A DNA stretch of 38,472 nt, from positions 1 through 38,472 of the forward strand of contig CANIPU010000021.1 of assembly GCA_947469485.1 (NCBI GenBank), read 5' to 3'. Of the stretch, positions 32,119 to 37,874 are shown piece by piece. Each line of letters starts with the position of its first letter. Position 1 is the stretch's first letter. Below the pieces are notes generated by a model. That model was not told the DNA's origin. It searched no databases and was given only the letters and a program-made list of their open reading frames with translations. The stretch is from Chitinophagaceae bacterium (GTDB taxonomy: Bacteria > Bacteroidota > Bacteroidia > Chitinophagales > UBA10324). A program made the translations under genes and the position numbers.

Positions 32119-35001
32119 TCAATCTTTCAATTTTCCCCTCAAATAATTCGCAGTATGCGAATTGCAGGTTTCTATCATTTCTTCCGGAGTGCCTTGAAAT
32201 AAAAGCTTCCCGCCTTCATCACCTCCATCCGGACCGAGGTCAATAATGTAGTCTGCACATTTTATCACTTCCATATTATGTTCAATGATTAAAACAGAGT
32301 GTCCGTTTTCAATCAAAGCATTAAATGATTGCAAAAGTTTACTGATGTCGTGAAAATGCAACCCGGTTGTTGGTTCATCGAAAATAAACAGCACTGGATT
32401 TTGCGAACTTCCTTTTCCGAGGAACGATGCAAGCTTAACACGCTGTGCCTCACCACCCGATAAAGTGCTCGATGACTGACCGAGTTTCACATAACCTAAT
32501 CCAACCTGTGCGAGCGGAAGAATGGAATCATGCAGATTTTTTTCATCAATAAAAAATTCAATTGCCTCATCAACAGTCAGGTCTAAAACATCAGCAATAT
32601 TTTTTCCTTTATAATTTACTTCCAACACTTCATCCTTAAATCGTTTGCCTTTGCACACTTCGCACAACAAATGGACATCACTTAAAAACTGCATCTCTAC
32701 CACAATTTCTCCTTCGCCCTTGCAATTATCACATCTACCACTATCCACATTAAATGAAAAATGTTTAGGTTGAAATCCTTTAAGCTGCGAACCGCGTTGC
32801 TTAGCATACAATTCGCGAATCAAATCATAAGCTTTTATATAAGTAACAGGATTGCTGCGCGATGATTTGCCAATCGGATTCTGATCAACCATTTCAATTT
32901 GTGTAAGAAGATTCATGTCTCCTTTCATTTCATAAAATTCACCAGGCTTGTCGCCAAAATTTCCGCATAAACGGGAAAGCGCAGGAAATGCAATTTGTTT
33001 AACCAAAGTTGTTTTGCCTGATCCACTTACCCCTGTCACTACTGTAATTACATTTAAAGGAATAGTAATATTTATGTTTTGTAAATTGTTTTGAGCGCAA
33101 CCATTGAACTCAATTTTATTAATCCAGTTTCTTCTTGTTTTTGGAATAGAAATTTTATGAACCCCGGTTAAATATTTTCCGGTAAGTGAATTTTTGTCTT
33201 TCAGGATTTCATCGAATGTTCCGCTGAAAACAACTTCGCCACCATGAGCACCTGCAAGCGGACCCATATCAATAATCTGGTCTGCATGATTCATGATTTC
33301 TTCTTCGTGTTCTACAACTAAAACGGTATTTCCAAGGTCGCGCAATTTGTGTAATACCTTAACAAGTTGACCGGTGTCTTTTGGGTGCAGTCCGATGCTT
33401 GGTTCATCCAATATGTAAAGAGAACTGGTGAGATTGCTTCCAAGTGTACGCGTTAAATTAATTCGTTGAGTTTCGCCACCTGAAAGTGTCGAAGAAATCC
33501 GGTTTAGTGTAAGATAGCCCAAGCCTACTTCCATCATAAACTGTAAGCGATTATTTATTTCAAGCAATAATCTTTTTGAAACTTCTTTTTCATAAACAGA
33601 AAGATTTAATGCAATAAAAAATTTCTGTAATTCTTTAACCGGCATCAATACCATTTCGCCAATTGACATTCCATCTACCTTTACATAAGATGATTCAATA
33701 CGCACTCTTGCGCCATGACAATCAGGGCAAGTTGTTTTACCACGATAGCGGGAAAGCAAAACACGGTACTGAATTTTATAACTCTGCTTTTCAAGTTCTT
33801 TGAAAAACTCATCGAGTCCATGAAAATATTTATTGCCAGTCCATAATAATTTTTTTTCACTTGCTGTCAGTTCTCGATATGACCGATGAACAGGAAAATC
33901 AAATTTATGAGCGCTTTTAATTAATAGTGTTAACCATTCACCCATTTTCTCACCTTTCCAGGGTGCAATAGCACCTTCATACACTGACCGGTTTTTATCT
34001 GGAATTACCAGATTTTCATCTACACCAATTACACTTCCGAAACCTTCACACTTACGACATGCACCGTATGGATTATTAAAGCTGAATAAATGAGGAGTTG
34101 GTTCTTCAAATAAAATTCCATCCATTTCAAATTTGTTGCTGAATTGTTTTTCGATTCCATCATGCAGAATGGTGCACATGCCATGCCCCTCAAAAAAAGC
34201 AACACCCAATGAATCAGAAATGCGCGACTGTAAATCTTCATCGTCCTTCTTCCACACAATTCTGTCCACCACCAACTGAAAAGTTTTCCCTTTCAGATTT
34301 TTCAACTGTGCATCATCAGCCAGTAATTCTTCTATCTTATAAACTTCTTTTTCCGATATAATTCTTGCAAAACCTTTTTGATTCAAAATCTGCAATTCCT
34401 GCTTTAAGGTTCGTGCCGTCGCAACAGTCGAATCTTTTACAACCTTCTTTGTTTTTGCCTGAGCATCAATTGCTGGAGTGCGTTGAGGCGAAAGAATAAA
34501 AACTGTGGTTGCTTCTTTCAGCGATTTTACAAAATCAACTACATCACTAACTTCATGTTTCTGCACTTCTTTTCCTGAAACAGGAGAATAAGTTTTTCCG
34601 ATGCGTGCATACAGCAGGCGCAGGTAATCATAAATTTCAGTAAGCGAACCAACAGTGGAACGCGAACTGCGCGTTGAAACTTTCTGCTCAATCGCAATCG
34701 CAGGACACAAACCCTTGATATAATCCACATCGGGCTTGTTCATGCGCACCAGAAACTGCCGCGCATAAGCCGACAGACTTTCGACATAGCGGCGCTGCCC
34801 TTCGGCGAACAAAGTGTCAATGGCGAGCGACGATTTCCCGGAGCCGCTCACCCCTGTAATCACCACTAATTTATTGCGACCTATTTCTAAATCTACATTC
34901 TTTAAATTGTGAACGCGCGCACCTTTGATGAGAATATTTTTCTCGTCTTTTTTAAATTTTATTTTGTCGTTCGGAATTTTATCTGATATTTGGCTCAACA
35001 T
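32119..35001 (-). CDS. uvrA: Excinuclease ABC subunit A, 960 aa
   Basis: Two ABC-ATPase halves are present. The first has Walker A GVSGSGKSSLAIDTLF and signature SSTLSGGETQRINL; the second has GVSGSGKTTLVKQ and SSTLSGGEAQRVKL. The first zinc-binding site shows CRKCEGFG and the matching CPDCHG; the second shows CDNCKGEG and CEVCKGKRF. UvrA dimers find bulky DNA lesions and load UvrB for nucleotide excision repair. The length matches the family. The frame is open 54 bp further upstream, but the ATG at 35001 gives a normal N-terminus. No clear LexA-type operator resembling the one at lexA is seen before this gene; a 5-bp inverted repeat (35010-35024) is noted only. Confidence 0.97.
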   Translation of the reverse strand: MLSQISDKIPNDKIKFKKDEKNILIKGARVHNLKNVDLEIGRNKLVVITGVSGSGKSSLAIDTLFAEGQRRYVESLSAYARQFLVRMNKPDVDYIKGLCPAIAIEQKVSTRSSRSTVGSLTEIYDYLRLLYARIGKTYSPVSGKEVQKHEVSDVVDFVKSLKEATTVFILSPQRTPAIDAQAKTKKVVKDSTVATARTLKQELQILNQKGFARIISEKEVYKIEELLADDAQLKNLKGKTFQLVVDRIVWKKDDEDLQSRISDSLGVAFFEGHGMCTILHDGIEKQFSNKFEMDGILFEEPTPHLFSFNNPYGACRKCEGFGSVIGVDENLVIPDKNRSVYEGAIAPWKGEKMGEWLTLLIKSAHKFDFPVHRSYRELTASEKKLLWTGNKYFHGLDEFFKELEKQSYKIQYRVLLSRYRGKTTCPDCHGARVRIESSYVKVDGMSIGEMVLMPVKELQKFFIALNLSVYEKEVSKRLLLEINNRLQFMMEVGLGYLTLNRISSTLSGGETQRINLTRTLGSNLTSSLYILDEPSIGLHPKDTGQLVKVLHKLRDLGNTVLVVEHEEEIMNHADQIIDMGPLAGAHGGEVVFSGTFDEILKDKNSLTGKYLTGVHKISIPKTRRNWINKIEFNGCAQNNLQNINITIPLNVITVVTGVSGSGKTTLVKQIAFPALSRLCGNFGDKPGEFYEMKGDMNLLTQIEMVDQNPIGKSSRSNPVTYIKAYDLIRELYAKQRGSQLKGFQPKHFSFNVDSGRCDNCKGEGEIVVEMQFLSDVHLLCEVCKGKRFKDEVLEVNYKGKNIADVLDLTVDEAIEFFIDEKNLHDSILPLAQVGLGYVKLGQSSSTLSGGEAQRVKLASFLGKGSSQNPVLFIFDEPTTGLHFHDISKLLQSFNALIENGHSVLIIEHNMEVIKCADYIIDLGPDGGDEGGKLLFQGTPEEMIETCNSHTANYLRGKLKD

Positions 35002-35156
35002 TTTTACAACTCTTCTCGTAAGAGGGAGCAAATAAAAGATAAACTCACACAGCAACGAAACACTTCTACACTCAATTTCAAGAAGTTTTATAAGTTAAGA
35101 TCTACATTACTTAGTCGCTGTTAATCATTAAACCCCTGTTTCAAATTCATGGCTTG

Positions 35157-35203
35157 AATTCTACAATTCATTTAACCCTTTATTCATCAAAAATTGTAGA
35201 ATT
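35157..35203 (+). promoter_or_regulatory. Perfect 12-bp inverted repeat ending at the ECF sigma start codon
   Basis: AATTCTACAATT (35157-35168) and AATTGTAGAATT (35192-35203) are exact reverse complements separated by 23 bases. The second arm ends on the base before the ATG at 35204. In RNA it would form a hairpin covering the translation start region; in DNA it could be a spaced operator. Confidence 0.6.
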
Positions 35204-35791
35204 ATGCAAACCAACCAAACCCTTAATGACCATGCTCTGGTGCAAGCTTACCAGCGTGGCAACGAACAGGCATTAACCACACTCGTGCAAATGCACAAGC
35301 AGCGCGTGTTTTCAGCCATTTACATGTTTGTGCGCGACCGGTATATCGCCGAAGATTTATTCCAGGAAACTTTTATTAAGGTGGTGGACAAGCTCCGGCA
35401 AGGGCAGTATCACGAGGAAGGAAAATTTCTTCCGTGGGTGTTGCGCATTGCGAATAATCTGTGCATTGATTATTACCGGAAAGTAAAGCGCACACCAAAA
35501 GTTAAAGTCACTACTTCTGACGGAACAGATATTTTCAAGTACATAAAATTTGAAGGCGACAACGGGCACGATGCAATGGTGCGCGAGCAGGCGTATGTGC
35601 GTGTTCGCAAGTTAGTGGATATGCTTCCCGAAGAGCAGAAAGAAGTAATCATACTTCGTCATTATGCCGATTTAAGTTTTAAGGAAATTGCCGACCTCAC
35701 CGGTGTCAGCATCAATACTGCACTCGGAAGAATGCGCTACGGACTCATCAATATCCGCCGGTTGATGGAAGAGAAGAAAATTGCATTGTAA
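35204..35791 (+). CDS. ECF sigma-70 family RNA polymerase sigma factor, 195 aa
   Basis: Region 2 (about residues 20-95) includes RDRYIAEDLFQETFIKVVDK and LPWVLRIANNLCIDYYRKVK. Region 4 (about 135-190) includes LPEEQKEVIILRHYADLSFK and a helix-turn-helix, GVSINTALGRMRYGLINIRR. The 35-residue linker between them is longer and more basic than in the other sigma factor here (3951-4502), so they are not recent duplicates. A short anti-sigma-like gene follows after 198 bp. A perfect 12-bp inverted repeat ends directly before the ATG and probably controls this gene (inference). Confidence 0.92.
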   Translation: MQTNQTLNDHALVQAYQRGNEQALTTLVQMHKQRVFSAIYMFVRDRYIAEDLFQETFIKVVDKLRQGQYHEEGKFLPWVLRIANNLCIDYYRKVKRTPKVKVTTSDGTDIFKYIKFEGDNGHDAMVREQAYVRVRKLVDMLPEEQKEVIILRHYADLSFKEIADLTGVSINTALGRMRYGLINIRRLMEEKKIAL

Positions 35792-35903
35792 CCTTTAGTA
35801 AAATTTGTTTCAGGCACACACAATAACCCAAAAGTGTTTGCGTTAAGCACCACATAAATGGAAACTGTCATTCAGCAATCAATAAAAATGAACTCCACCT
35901 TTT

Positions 35904-35935
35904 CCCTTCCCGCCTTGGGAAGGGTTAAAGGCGGG
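35904..35935. repeat. GC-rich element with two mutually exclusive hairpins
   Basis: CCCTTCCC (35904-35911) pairs with GGGAAGGG (35917-35924), and CCCGCCTT (35909-35916) pairs with AAGGCGGG (35928-35935). The stems share 35909-35911 and cannot form together. The element is much richer in G+C than its surroundings and looks like the small dispersed palindromic repeats found between genes in Bacteroidota. Confidence 0.55.
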
Positions 35936-35989
35936 CCACACAATAATTCAGTAATCACTTCGTTAAAAATTAAAATCAATAACAAATAC

Positions 35990-36217
35990 ATGAAAACTTT
36001 TACAACTGATGATTTAGTTCGCTTCGTTTACAACGAAACAACAGCAGAAGAATCTTCTGCTATCAAGAAAGCGATTCTCGAAAATCTTGATTTAGCAAAA
36101 ACCTACCAGGGCATGCTCACTGCCAAAGAAGAACTCGAGCAAGGGAAATTAAATCCCAGCGACAGCAGTATTGAGATTATCATGCAATACAGTCGCAATA
36201 CAGTCGCAACACTGTGA
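35990..36217 (+). CDS. Mini anti-sigma-like protein, 75 aa
   Basis: The short soluble protein starts MKTFTTDDLVRFVYNETTAE, followed by an acidic amphipathic helix, ESSAIKKAILENLDLAKTYQ. This resembles the first helices of anti-sigma domains (a 'two-helix, acidic linker' start), but there is no zinc motif or membrane span. It lies downstream of an ECF sigma gene on the same strand, so a regulatory partner of that sigma factor is the best guess. The frame is open back to 35858, but that part only translates the GC-rich repeat, so the ATG at 35990 is preferred. An 11-bp tandem duplication (36184-36205) at the 3' end changes the last residues. Confidence 0.6.
   Translation: MKTFTTDDLVRFVYNETTAEESSAIKKAILENLDLAKTYQGMLTAKEELEQGKLNPSDSSIEIIMQYSRNTVATL
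36184..36210. repeat. 11-bp tandem duplication at the 3' end of the mini anti-sigma gene
   Basis: GCAATACAGTC occurs at 36184-36194 and 36195-36205, followed by a partial GCAAC. The unit is not a multiple of three, so it changes the reading frame of the last codons. Confidence 0.85.
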
Positions 36218-37707: not shown

Positions 37708-37725
37708 TTGACAAACTTGACAAAT
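37708..37725. repeat. Direct repeat TTGACAAA overlapping the recA promoter
   Basis: TTGACAAAC (37708-37716) is followed at once by TTGACAAAT (37717-37725); a third GACAAA occurs at 37765-37770. The second copy contains the -33 TTG of the recA promoter, so a bound regulator could block transcription. Confidence 0.45.
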
Positions 37726-37746
37726 TCAGAAAAACATTTATATTTG
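37717..37746 (+). promoter_or_regulatory. recA promoter, Bacteroidota type
   Basis: TTG (37717-37719), 19 bases, TATATTTG (37739-37746). This matches the Bacteroidota housekeeping consensus TTTG-N19-TAnnTTTG very well. The expected start of transcription near 37753 leaves a leader of about 120 bases before the recA ATG. Confidence 0.65.
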
Positions 37747-37874
37747 CCTCAGATTCTACAAAAAGACAAATAAAAATTGTGAATAAATATTTCCCGAACT
37801 TTCGTTGTTTAAAAGACTGTGATGATTCAATTTCGTGGAGTATAGCAATACAATCAGTTAAAAAATTTTAAATC

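Follow-up and report, generated by a model that had tools for sequence, protein, structure and literature searches.

In the 38,472-nucleotide stretch of a Chitinophagaceae genome analyzed here (contig CANIPU010000021.1; hereafter, the window), a perfect 12-bp inverted repeat leads directly into the start codon of an ECF sigma factor gene. We consider it probable that the leader of this sigma factor mRNA carries a cis-acting translational switch (translation attenuation), in which a minute open reading frame (mini-ORF) is combined with a helix covering the sigma start and, judging from the related leaders, the inverted repeat in the window is one copy of this putative switch, which is widespread in Bacteroidia. 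Comparison across loci demonstrates a conserved predicted pairing and a start, stop and Shine-Dalgarno (SD) signature of the putative mini-ORF; the relief of the sigma start by a ribosome footprint is an in silico result, and the direction of control and the signal we infer. The features of the window are as follows, all on the plus strand.

34964..34992, plus strand: candidate promoter TTG-N18-GATATTTG, weak, with one mismatch in the -7 element
35064..35069, plus strand: further TTCTAC copy, found in the sequence and also in the genus, not preceded by a mini-ORF; might serve as an alternative left arm
35090..35098, plus strand: mini-ORF 1, ATA-AGT-TAA (from sequence)
35099..35105, plus strand: GATCTAC, the left element behind mini-ORF 1 (from sequence)
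35149..35157, plus strand: mini-ORF 2, ATG-GCT-TGA, the last base of which is the first base of the left arm (from sequence)
35157-35168, plus strand: left arm of the predicted sequestering helix, AATTCTACAATT (sequence, folding)
35169-35191, plus strand: helix loop, 23 bases (sequence)
35192-35203, plus strand: right arm AATTGTAGAATT, adjoining the start codon (sequence, folding, own-pairing tests)
35204..35791, plus strand: ECF sigma factor gene, 195 aa (Pfam Sigma70_r2 4.7e-15, Sigma70_r4_2 2.7e-11)
35990..36217, plus strand: small soluble protein, 75 aa from ATG 35990, the ORF after the sigma gene

The Pfam matches to sigma70 regions 2 and 4 place the gene among the ECF sigma factors. It is divergent from uvrA and is followed by the small ORF and then by nth. 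A homolog was found in 59 of 60 related genomes and, as the presumed ortholog, in 339 of 395 genomes sampled from the class (E<=1e-38); one genome contains two homologs in tandem (G447 contig 2, 1080347-1082029). The 75-aa protein is a possible partner or anti-sigma of the sigma factor. The longer version of its ORF (35858-36217) has no Pfam or NCBIfam match; similar small ORFs lie 3' of the sigma gene in several relatives, and no comparable one was found in L028, L035, L036, L041 and L057. Relatives of the 75-aa protein in several families have a common C-terminal pattern near PSxxSIxIIxYS. We considered the EcfO-Reo pair of Bacteroides and Phocaeicola, likewise an ECF sigma stress regulon in Bacteroidia, as the identity of the locus; however, the Reo-type anti-sigma spans all cell compartments (PMC13114119, in part), whereas the ORF behind the sigma gene of the window encodes a small protein and is followed by nth, with no adjacent large membrane-spanning anti-sigma, and this identification was dropped.

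The inverted repeat before the sigma gene was the subject of an earlier note on this DNA. It is real, with exact arms and a 23-base loop, but not located one base before the start codon, as had been stated: the right arm abuts the ATG (35204-35206) directly, with zero bases between. The exact arm-loop-arm pattern occurs once in the window, in none of 100 shuffles, and at a single place in the 3.08 Mb genome. Because the window contains six centers of perfect 12-bp inverted repeats with a 3-60 base loop, compared with a mean of 0.30 (largest 2) in 30 dinucleotide shuffles, such a repeat by itself is only mildly notable; it is more than chance because the pairing is conserved in relatives. Folded alone, positions 35140-35215 reach -12.5 kcal/mol (z = -3.34). 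The stem over the start codon is A/U-rich, which had prompted the suggestion of a useful melting range, that is, of an RNA thermometer exposing the sigma start upon heating. This explanation is extremely unlikely: opening the sigma start of the window is predicted to cost 8.9 kcal/mol at 37 C and still 5.4 kcal/mol at 55 C, and the mean unpaired probability predicted for the start region rises only from 0.19 (5 C) through 0.22 (37 C) to 0.31 (55 C), so that in silico, between 5 and 55 C, the window leader shows no start opening in the growth range. Furthermore, a thermometer has no need for a conserved upstream motif.

Such a motif is found in much of the class. We assembled 177 leaders, including close relatives and a few duplicate genomes, 110 from the first sets and 67 from a later class search (L098, where no ATG was found, and the truncated L113 were excluded, and L131-L140 were not added); the relatives sampled include Chitinophaga, Pedobacter, Ferruginibacter and others, from which we infer the class to be Bacteroidia. 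The motif consists of two parts, GCCTATHG and YTCTAC, separated by 4-11 bases. It scores at least 19 in 101 of the 177 leaders (76 below), compared with 1.1% of mononucleotide shuffles, and at least 18 in 120 (57 below), compared with 6.7% of mononucleotide-shuffled leaders. Among 50 labeled groups, each a family except that the window's family was divided into 7 genera, and with unlabeled loci left out, the best leader scores at least 18 in 35 and at least 19 in 27. Some Chitinophagaceae and relatives (e.g. L042, L047 and L059) lack the motif, and the window leader itself scores below 18, with the genus members L003 and L005 at 18.1 and 18.2. The score rewards T, A, T, A/C/T, G, GCC and YTCTAC, whereas stops, SD spacing and pairing are unscored; counts of start codons and motif columns are thus partly built in, because TAT, A/C/T and G are rewarded. 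Removal of 17 near-duplicates from the 101 leaders scoring at least 19 left 84 motif-bearing loci. A covariance model built from 23 leaders and run with strict filters against the 395 genomes yielded 10 hits at E<=0.01, 9 of them directly 5' of the sigma gene and one (L139) elsewhere. Because this Chitinophagaceae-like model did not recover the window's own copy in the same search, diverged copies might also exist at other genes.

Across the relatives, the partner of the left arm around CTAC is the stretch immediately 5' of the sigma ATG, which in some loci extends over the ATG itself. In an alignment-free comparison of 84 loci (111 rows minus L098, without an ATG, and L102 and L111, with <130 nt upstream, and then minus 24 near-duplicates among the remaining 108), own pairings scored 1536, whereas 20000 re-pairings averaged 1292 and never exceeded 1405; anchored on the motif, they reached 1342.5 against a mean of 1083 and a maximum of 1217 (84 loci, 20000 re-pairings), and with one locus per group (35 groups, 33 families; 20000 re-pairings) 506 against a mean of 403 and a maximum of 481.5, where the three sets overlap and the statistics ignore the kinship of the loci. 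Few loci stand out singly, the own pairing exceeding the 90th percentile of foreign pairings in 28 of 84 and the 99th in 3 of 84, and the pairing signal is therefore collective. The compensating changes in relatives envisaged in the earlier note are thus present, with the pairing kept and the arms changing together across loci: ACTTCTAC/GTAGAAGT in Chitinophagaceae, GACGTTTACT inside CAGAGACGTTTACT/AGTAAACGTCTATG in L024, TACTCTTTTA/TAAAAGAGTA in L191, ATAAAACCTCT/GGAGGTTTTAT in L141, CATAATTTCTACTTTTTA/TAAAAAGTAGATATTATG in L185, and CATACTTCTACA/TGTAGGAGTATG in L084. U.G pairs occur in the arms. The covariation signal lies between families, not inside Chitinophagaceae: among the 23 Chitinophagaceae-like leaders, where the arms hardly vary, covariation was not above shuffles, and RNAalifold on the Chitinophagaceae alignment gave only -1.49 kcal/mol.

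The place of the partner differs among loci. With a score cut of 14, a strong start-proximal helix is present in 50 of 84 loci and absent in 34. In these 34, the left arm pairs with the first sigma codons instead (503 against 417 +- 12; 0 of 5000 re-pairings as good), and no pairing with upstream sequence was detected (3324 of 5000 as good), nor any pairing with the loop in 25 loci without a start-proximal arm (4899 of 5000). Within one group, CTAC-A-CTAAT faces ATT-AGT-G and CTAC-G-CTAAT faces ATT-AGC-G; of the 9 loci with A in the left arm, 8 have a facing codon with T in third position (the remaining codon is AGA), and of the 8 with G, 7 have a facing codon with C there (Fisher test on the T/C cells, p = 0.0014; 17 loci, with L011/L012 and L027/L052 being near-duplicates). 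In a sliding-window profile over 60 loci (24 of the 84 were omitted for too little sequence), z was 4.9 at -24..-5 and 6.4 at -12..+7, compared with -1.3 and 0.1 in two upstream windows; class-wide, the same 60 loci gave no signal for pairing with codons at +0 to +55 (z about 0 to -0.9), and z was 2.2 at +48..+67, 1.0 at +60..+79 and negative beyond.

As a separate observation, AGGAG or GGAGG lies at -17 to -4 of the sigma start in 27 of 177 leaders (e.g. L168-L172, L141 and L165) in a class that rarely uses SDs, and in several loci, such as L141 and L157, the helix covers this SD. In four Sphingobacteriaceae leaders (L063, L070, L071 and L103), the sigma start also offers a partner, CCTATG or CTCCTATG, to the leader SD region CATAGGAG, as judged in part by eye. 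The possible outer helix so formed would tie use of the SD to access to the start.

The arms could in principle be DNA sites, either bound by a dimeric regulator, as the earlier note suggested, or belonging to a promoter of the sigma factor itself. The inverted symmetry of the window copy and the strong conservation of CTAC even in loci without an ATG-proximal arm fit a DNA site; however, we regard this as very unlikely. The distance from the motif to the ATG varies from +41 to +161, so that there is no fixed helical spacing, U.G pairs are tolerated in the arms, the right arm frequently extends over the ATG or falls among the codons, and promoter-like sites lie upstream. No regulon of CTATMG-N4-9-ACTYCTAC sites was seen in 25 genomes: of the 15 matches to the pattern, compared with 40 for the reversed control, 7 were at the sigma gene, and we judged the other 8, which were at different places, to be chance by their surroundings. 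An autoregulated ECF promoter, suspected from GCCTAT...CTAC, was dropped because this search was negative and the spacing varies.

The promoter-like sites suggest that both arms are transcribed. The Bacteroidetes promoter consensus is TTTG/TANNTTTG at -33/-7 (PMC6847099, in part). Upstream of the unit, TTG-N18-21-TANNTTTG is present in 16 of 81 leaders, compared with 0.4 in shuffles (most 3), and in 51 of 81 when one -7 mismatch is allowed, compared with 6.4 (most 14); 3 of the 84 loci, with <150 nt of upstream sequence, were omitted. In the window, the candidate at 34964-34992 is the only match in 34801-35210 and lies inside the first codons of the divergent uvrA. Leaders of Chitinophaga and Pedobacter contain conserved blocks. 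The arms are thus probably transcribed, and the mRNA can therefore fold over the sigma start, as the earlier note had proposed; of that proposal, the pairing is upheld by its conservation and transcription of the arms is probable. Elsewhere in the window, the gap (37708-37788) between a LexA-like gene (TIGR00498 83 bits, under the cut-off of 111) and recA contains a tandem TTGACAAA repeat, a promoter of textbook form (TTG-N19-TATATTTG) and an inverted repeat with imperfect arms, ATTCTACAA...TTGTGAAT, a possible SOS-type operator.

Immediately 5' of the left arm lies the mini-ORF, which the earlier note missed and through which the stem could be opened more specifically. Read from the A of TAT-H-G in the 84 non-redundant motif-bearing loci, the frame starts with AUA in 49, AUC in 26, AUU in 8 and AUG in 1, counts that are partly built into the score; the infC-type starts AUU, AUC and AUA thus account for 83 of 84. 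A G follows the start codon in 75 of 84 (the score favors G). Evidence that owes nothing to the score comes from stops and SDs. A stop occurs within 8 codons in 60 of 84 loci in the mini-ORF frame, compared with 23 and 22 in the other frames (Fisher 1.7e-8 and 6.3e-9), and at codon 3 itself 31 of 84 have one (TAA 21, TGA 5, TAG 5), compared with 3.0 per 84 at nearby offsets; with one locus per group, codon 3 is a stop in 13 of 35, and the frame contrast within 8 codons is weaker (24 compared with 14 and 11 of 35). Most stops occupy codon 3 or one of codons 7-9, positions around the left arm; 11 of the 84 frames have no stop within 13 codons. In 10 of 84 loci the 40 nt 5' of the frame include AGGAG or GGAGG, and its distance to the start codon is then invariably 4-7 nt (7 nt in 9 of 11 matches); 8 of these 10 loci belong to or resemble Sphingobacteriaceae and the other two are from families f44 and f71, and L172, L186 and L201, outside the 84, look like SD-bearing loci by eye. 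The frames are mostly 2 to about 13 codons long, and by eye they have no common stalling peptide. A uORF started by ATG and read through CCTAT was also considered and is not general, because only 10 of 68 loci have an in-frame ATG within 12 codons upstream.

In the window, the upstream frame (mini-ORF 1) starts with AUA and the arm-adjacent frame (mini-ORF 2) with AUG. By reading, mini-ORF 2 is present in 6 of 6 genomes of the genus; in L006, the lone locus with an AUG among the 84 and a member of the window's own genus, it is the pick of the motif scan (score 19.1). The window copy is divergent, with a clear helix, a weak match to the class motif and a mini-ORF, identified by architecture only, with AUG.

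We propose that in the OFF state the left arm, with its core CUAC, would block ribosome loading by pairing either with a right arm located at the sigma start or, in certain families, with the opening codons of the sigma gene. In the ON state, a ribosome starting on, or terminating at, the mini-ORF would cover the left arm and free the sigma start. In agreement with this geometry, the start-occluding helix has, in silico, one arm within the footprint of a ribosome on the upstream frame, as in uORF attenuators, and blocking the footprint on the mini-ORF lowered the predicted opening cost of the sigma start by 3.56 kcal/mol on average (25 C, 84 loci), whereas an equal block placed upstream yielded 0.28 and one in the loop -0.04 (74 loci). 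Relief of >1 kcal/mol was predicted in 54 of 84 loci with the mini-ORF block, compared with 14 of 84 with the upstream block (Wilcoxon 1.8e-10) and 14 of 74 with the loop block. The 34 loci without a strong start-proximal arm had a smaller relief (1.64 compared with 0.36), and for the window the predicted cost fell from 11.4 to 4.4 with a footprint set from 35151, two bases off. Because the left arm lies inside the assumed footprint, these figures check the geometry more than the mechanism.

The same helix could instead be opened by an RNA-binding protein, a small RNA or a ligand recognizing GCCUAUHG/ACYUCUAC, with the frame being incidental. GCC and CUAC are conserved beyond the need for a start codon, albeit in part through the score, and the mini-ORF switch does not explain the conservation of GCC before AUH; the covariance hits, nine of ten before the sigma gene, are also compatible with a binding element. 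However, a binding site would not be expected to come with frame-specific codon-3 stops of every type or with a fixed SD spacing, and no Rfam family was found at threshold in the window leader (34900-35400; best 21.6 bits against a cut-off of 90) or in the loci of 10 relatives. We therefore hold such an opener to be unlikely.

For the mini-ORF switch, a possible signal is the state of translation initiation. The infC gene of E. coli starts with AUU. IF3 discriminates against AUU, AUC and AUA starts and over-long SDs (PMC4611024, in part), and the rare infC start codon is linked to IF3 autoregulation (PMC13009471, in part). In 7 of 16 genomes of the class (L208-L223), the open frame of infC is devoid of ATG, GTG and TTG, leaving AUA, AUU or AUC; the window genome is among the 7, its infC appearing to start AUA-GCA. 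A strong SD precedes the AUA-GCA in L217 and L220 and the AUU in L214, similar to the SD-bearing mini-ORFs. Because AUA, AUC and AUU are codons rejected by IF3, the mini-ORF would probably be read when initiation is relaxed or the state of the ribosome is altered; because such starts are common to mini-ORFs and infC, we propose that the switch reads the initiation state, and this analogy suggests that it may sense it. In its most specific form, the switch would be a class-wide sensor of initiation fidelity, responding to IF3 or to the ribosome assembly state and turning on a conserved ECF sigma, with a two-codon frame and an IF3-rejected start built like the infC start site; this version we offer tentatively, as a minority view. 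The arm-adjacent frame of the window speaks against a reading of the initiation state, because it starts with AUG, a codon that IF3 does not reject.

Alternatively, and compatible with the main model, the mini-ORF may be translated and sense slow termination, recycling, or antibiotic-stalled ribosomes, or bS21-lacking ones able to read SD sequences, rather than IF3, a possibility to be taken seriously although it falls clearly short of likely. The stops around the left arm, the strong SDs at the mini-ORF, at some infC genes and at the 27 sigma starts noted above, and the AUG of the arm-adjacent mini-ORF in the window all fit this version, and in Flavobacterium the loss of bS21 raises translation of strong-SD reporters (PMC9976891, in part). 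It leaves the rarity of AUG at the mini-ORF (1 of 84, L006) unexplained.

Among known systems, the switch would work like a uORF attenuator. Attenuation of the ermC type is controlled by a uORF. In such systems, which include vmlR of B. subtilis (PMC9226507, in part), a ribosome on a short upstream frame refolds the leader and the downstream gene is expressed. New in comparison with vmlR and ermC would be that the frame in the sigma leader, often only start, codon and stop, begins with the IF3-rejected AUA, AUC or AUU in most motif-bearing loci and encodes no conserved stalling peptide by eye; the regulated gene also differs, encoding a sigma factor and not a resistance function. In S. aureus, infC, ccpN and cvfC1 initiate at start codons that IF3 rejects (PMC13009471, in part), and infC-type starts resemble the mini-ORF in the AUA or AUU codon and, at times, a strong SD; however, there the codon starts the regulated protein itself, whereas in the sigma leader it starts a tiny frame that would act via RNA folding. 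In Bacteroidia, bS21-less ribosomes mediate an SD-dependent autoregulation of rpsU (PMC9976891, in part), which likewise employs rare strong SDs as regulatory signals in a class seldom using them; its target, however, is bS21, not a sigma factor, and "hairpin" and "uORF" are absent from the main text of that source. No description of such a leader was found in the open-licence literature surveyed, part of which was judged by titles and abstract starts.

If the proposed switch exists, it would link the status of protein synthesis to a sigma factor with a homolog in 339 of the 395 genomes of the class, and its sensing element, often a start codon, one codon and a stop, would be among the smallest imaginable. 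It would also give rare start codons a function, and likewise the rare Shine-Dalgarno sequences of a class that mostly lacks them. Should the switch indeed read initiation fidelity, initiation stress would be converted into a transcriptional response.
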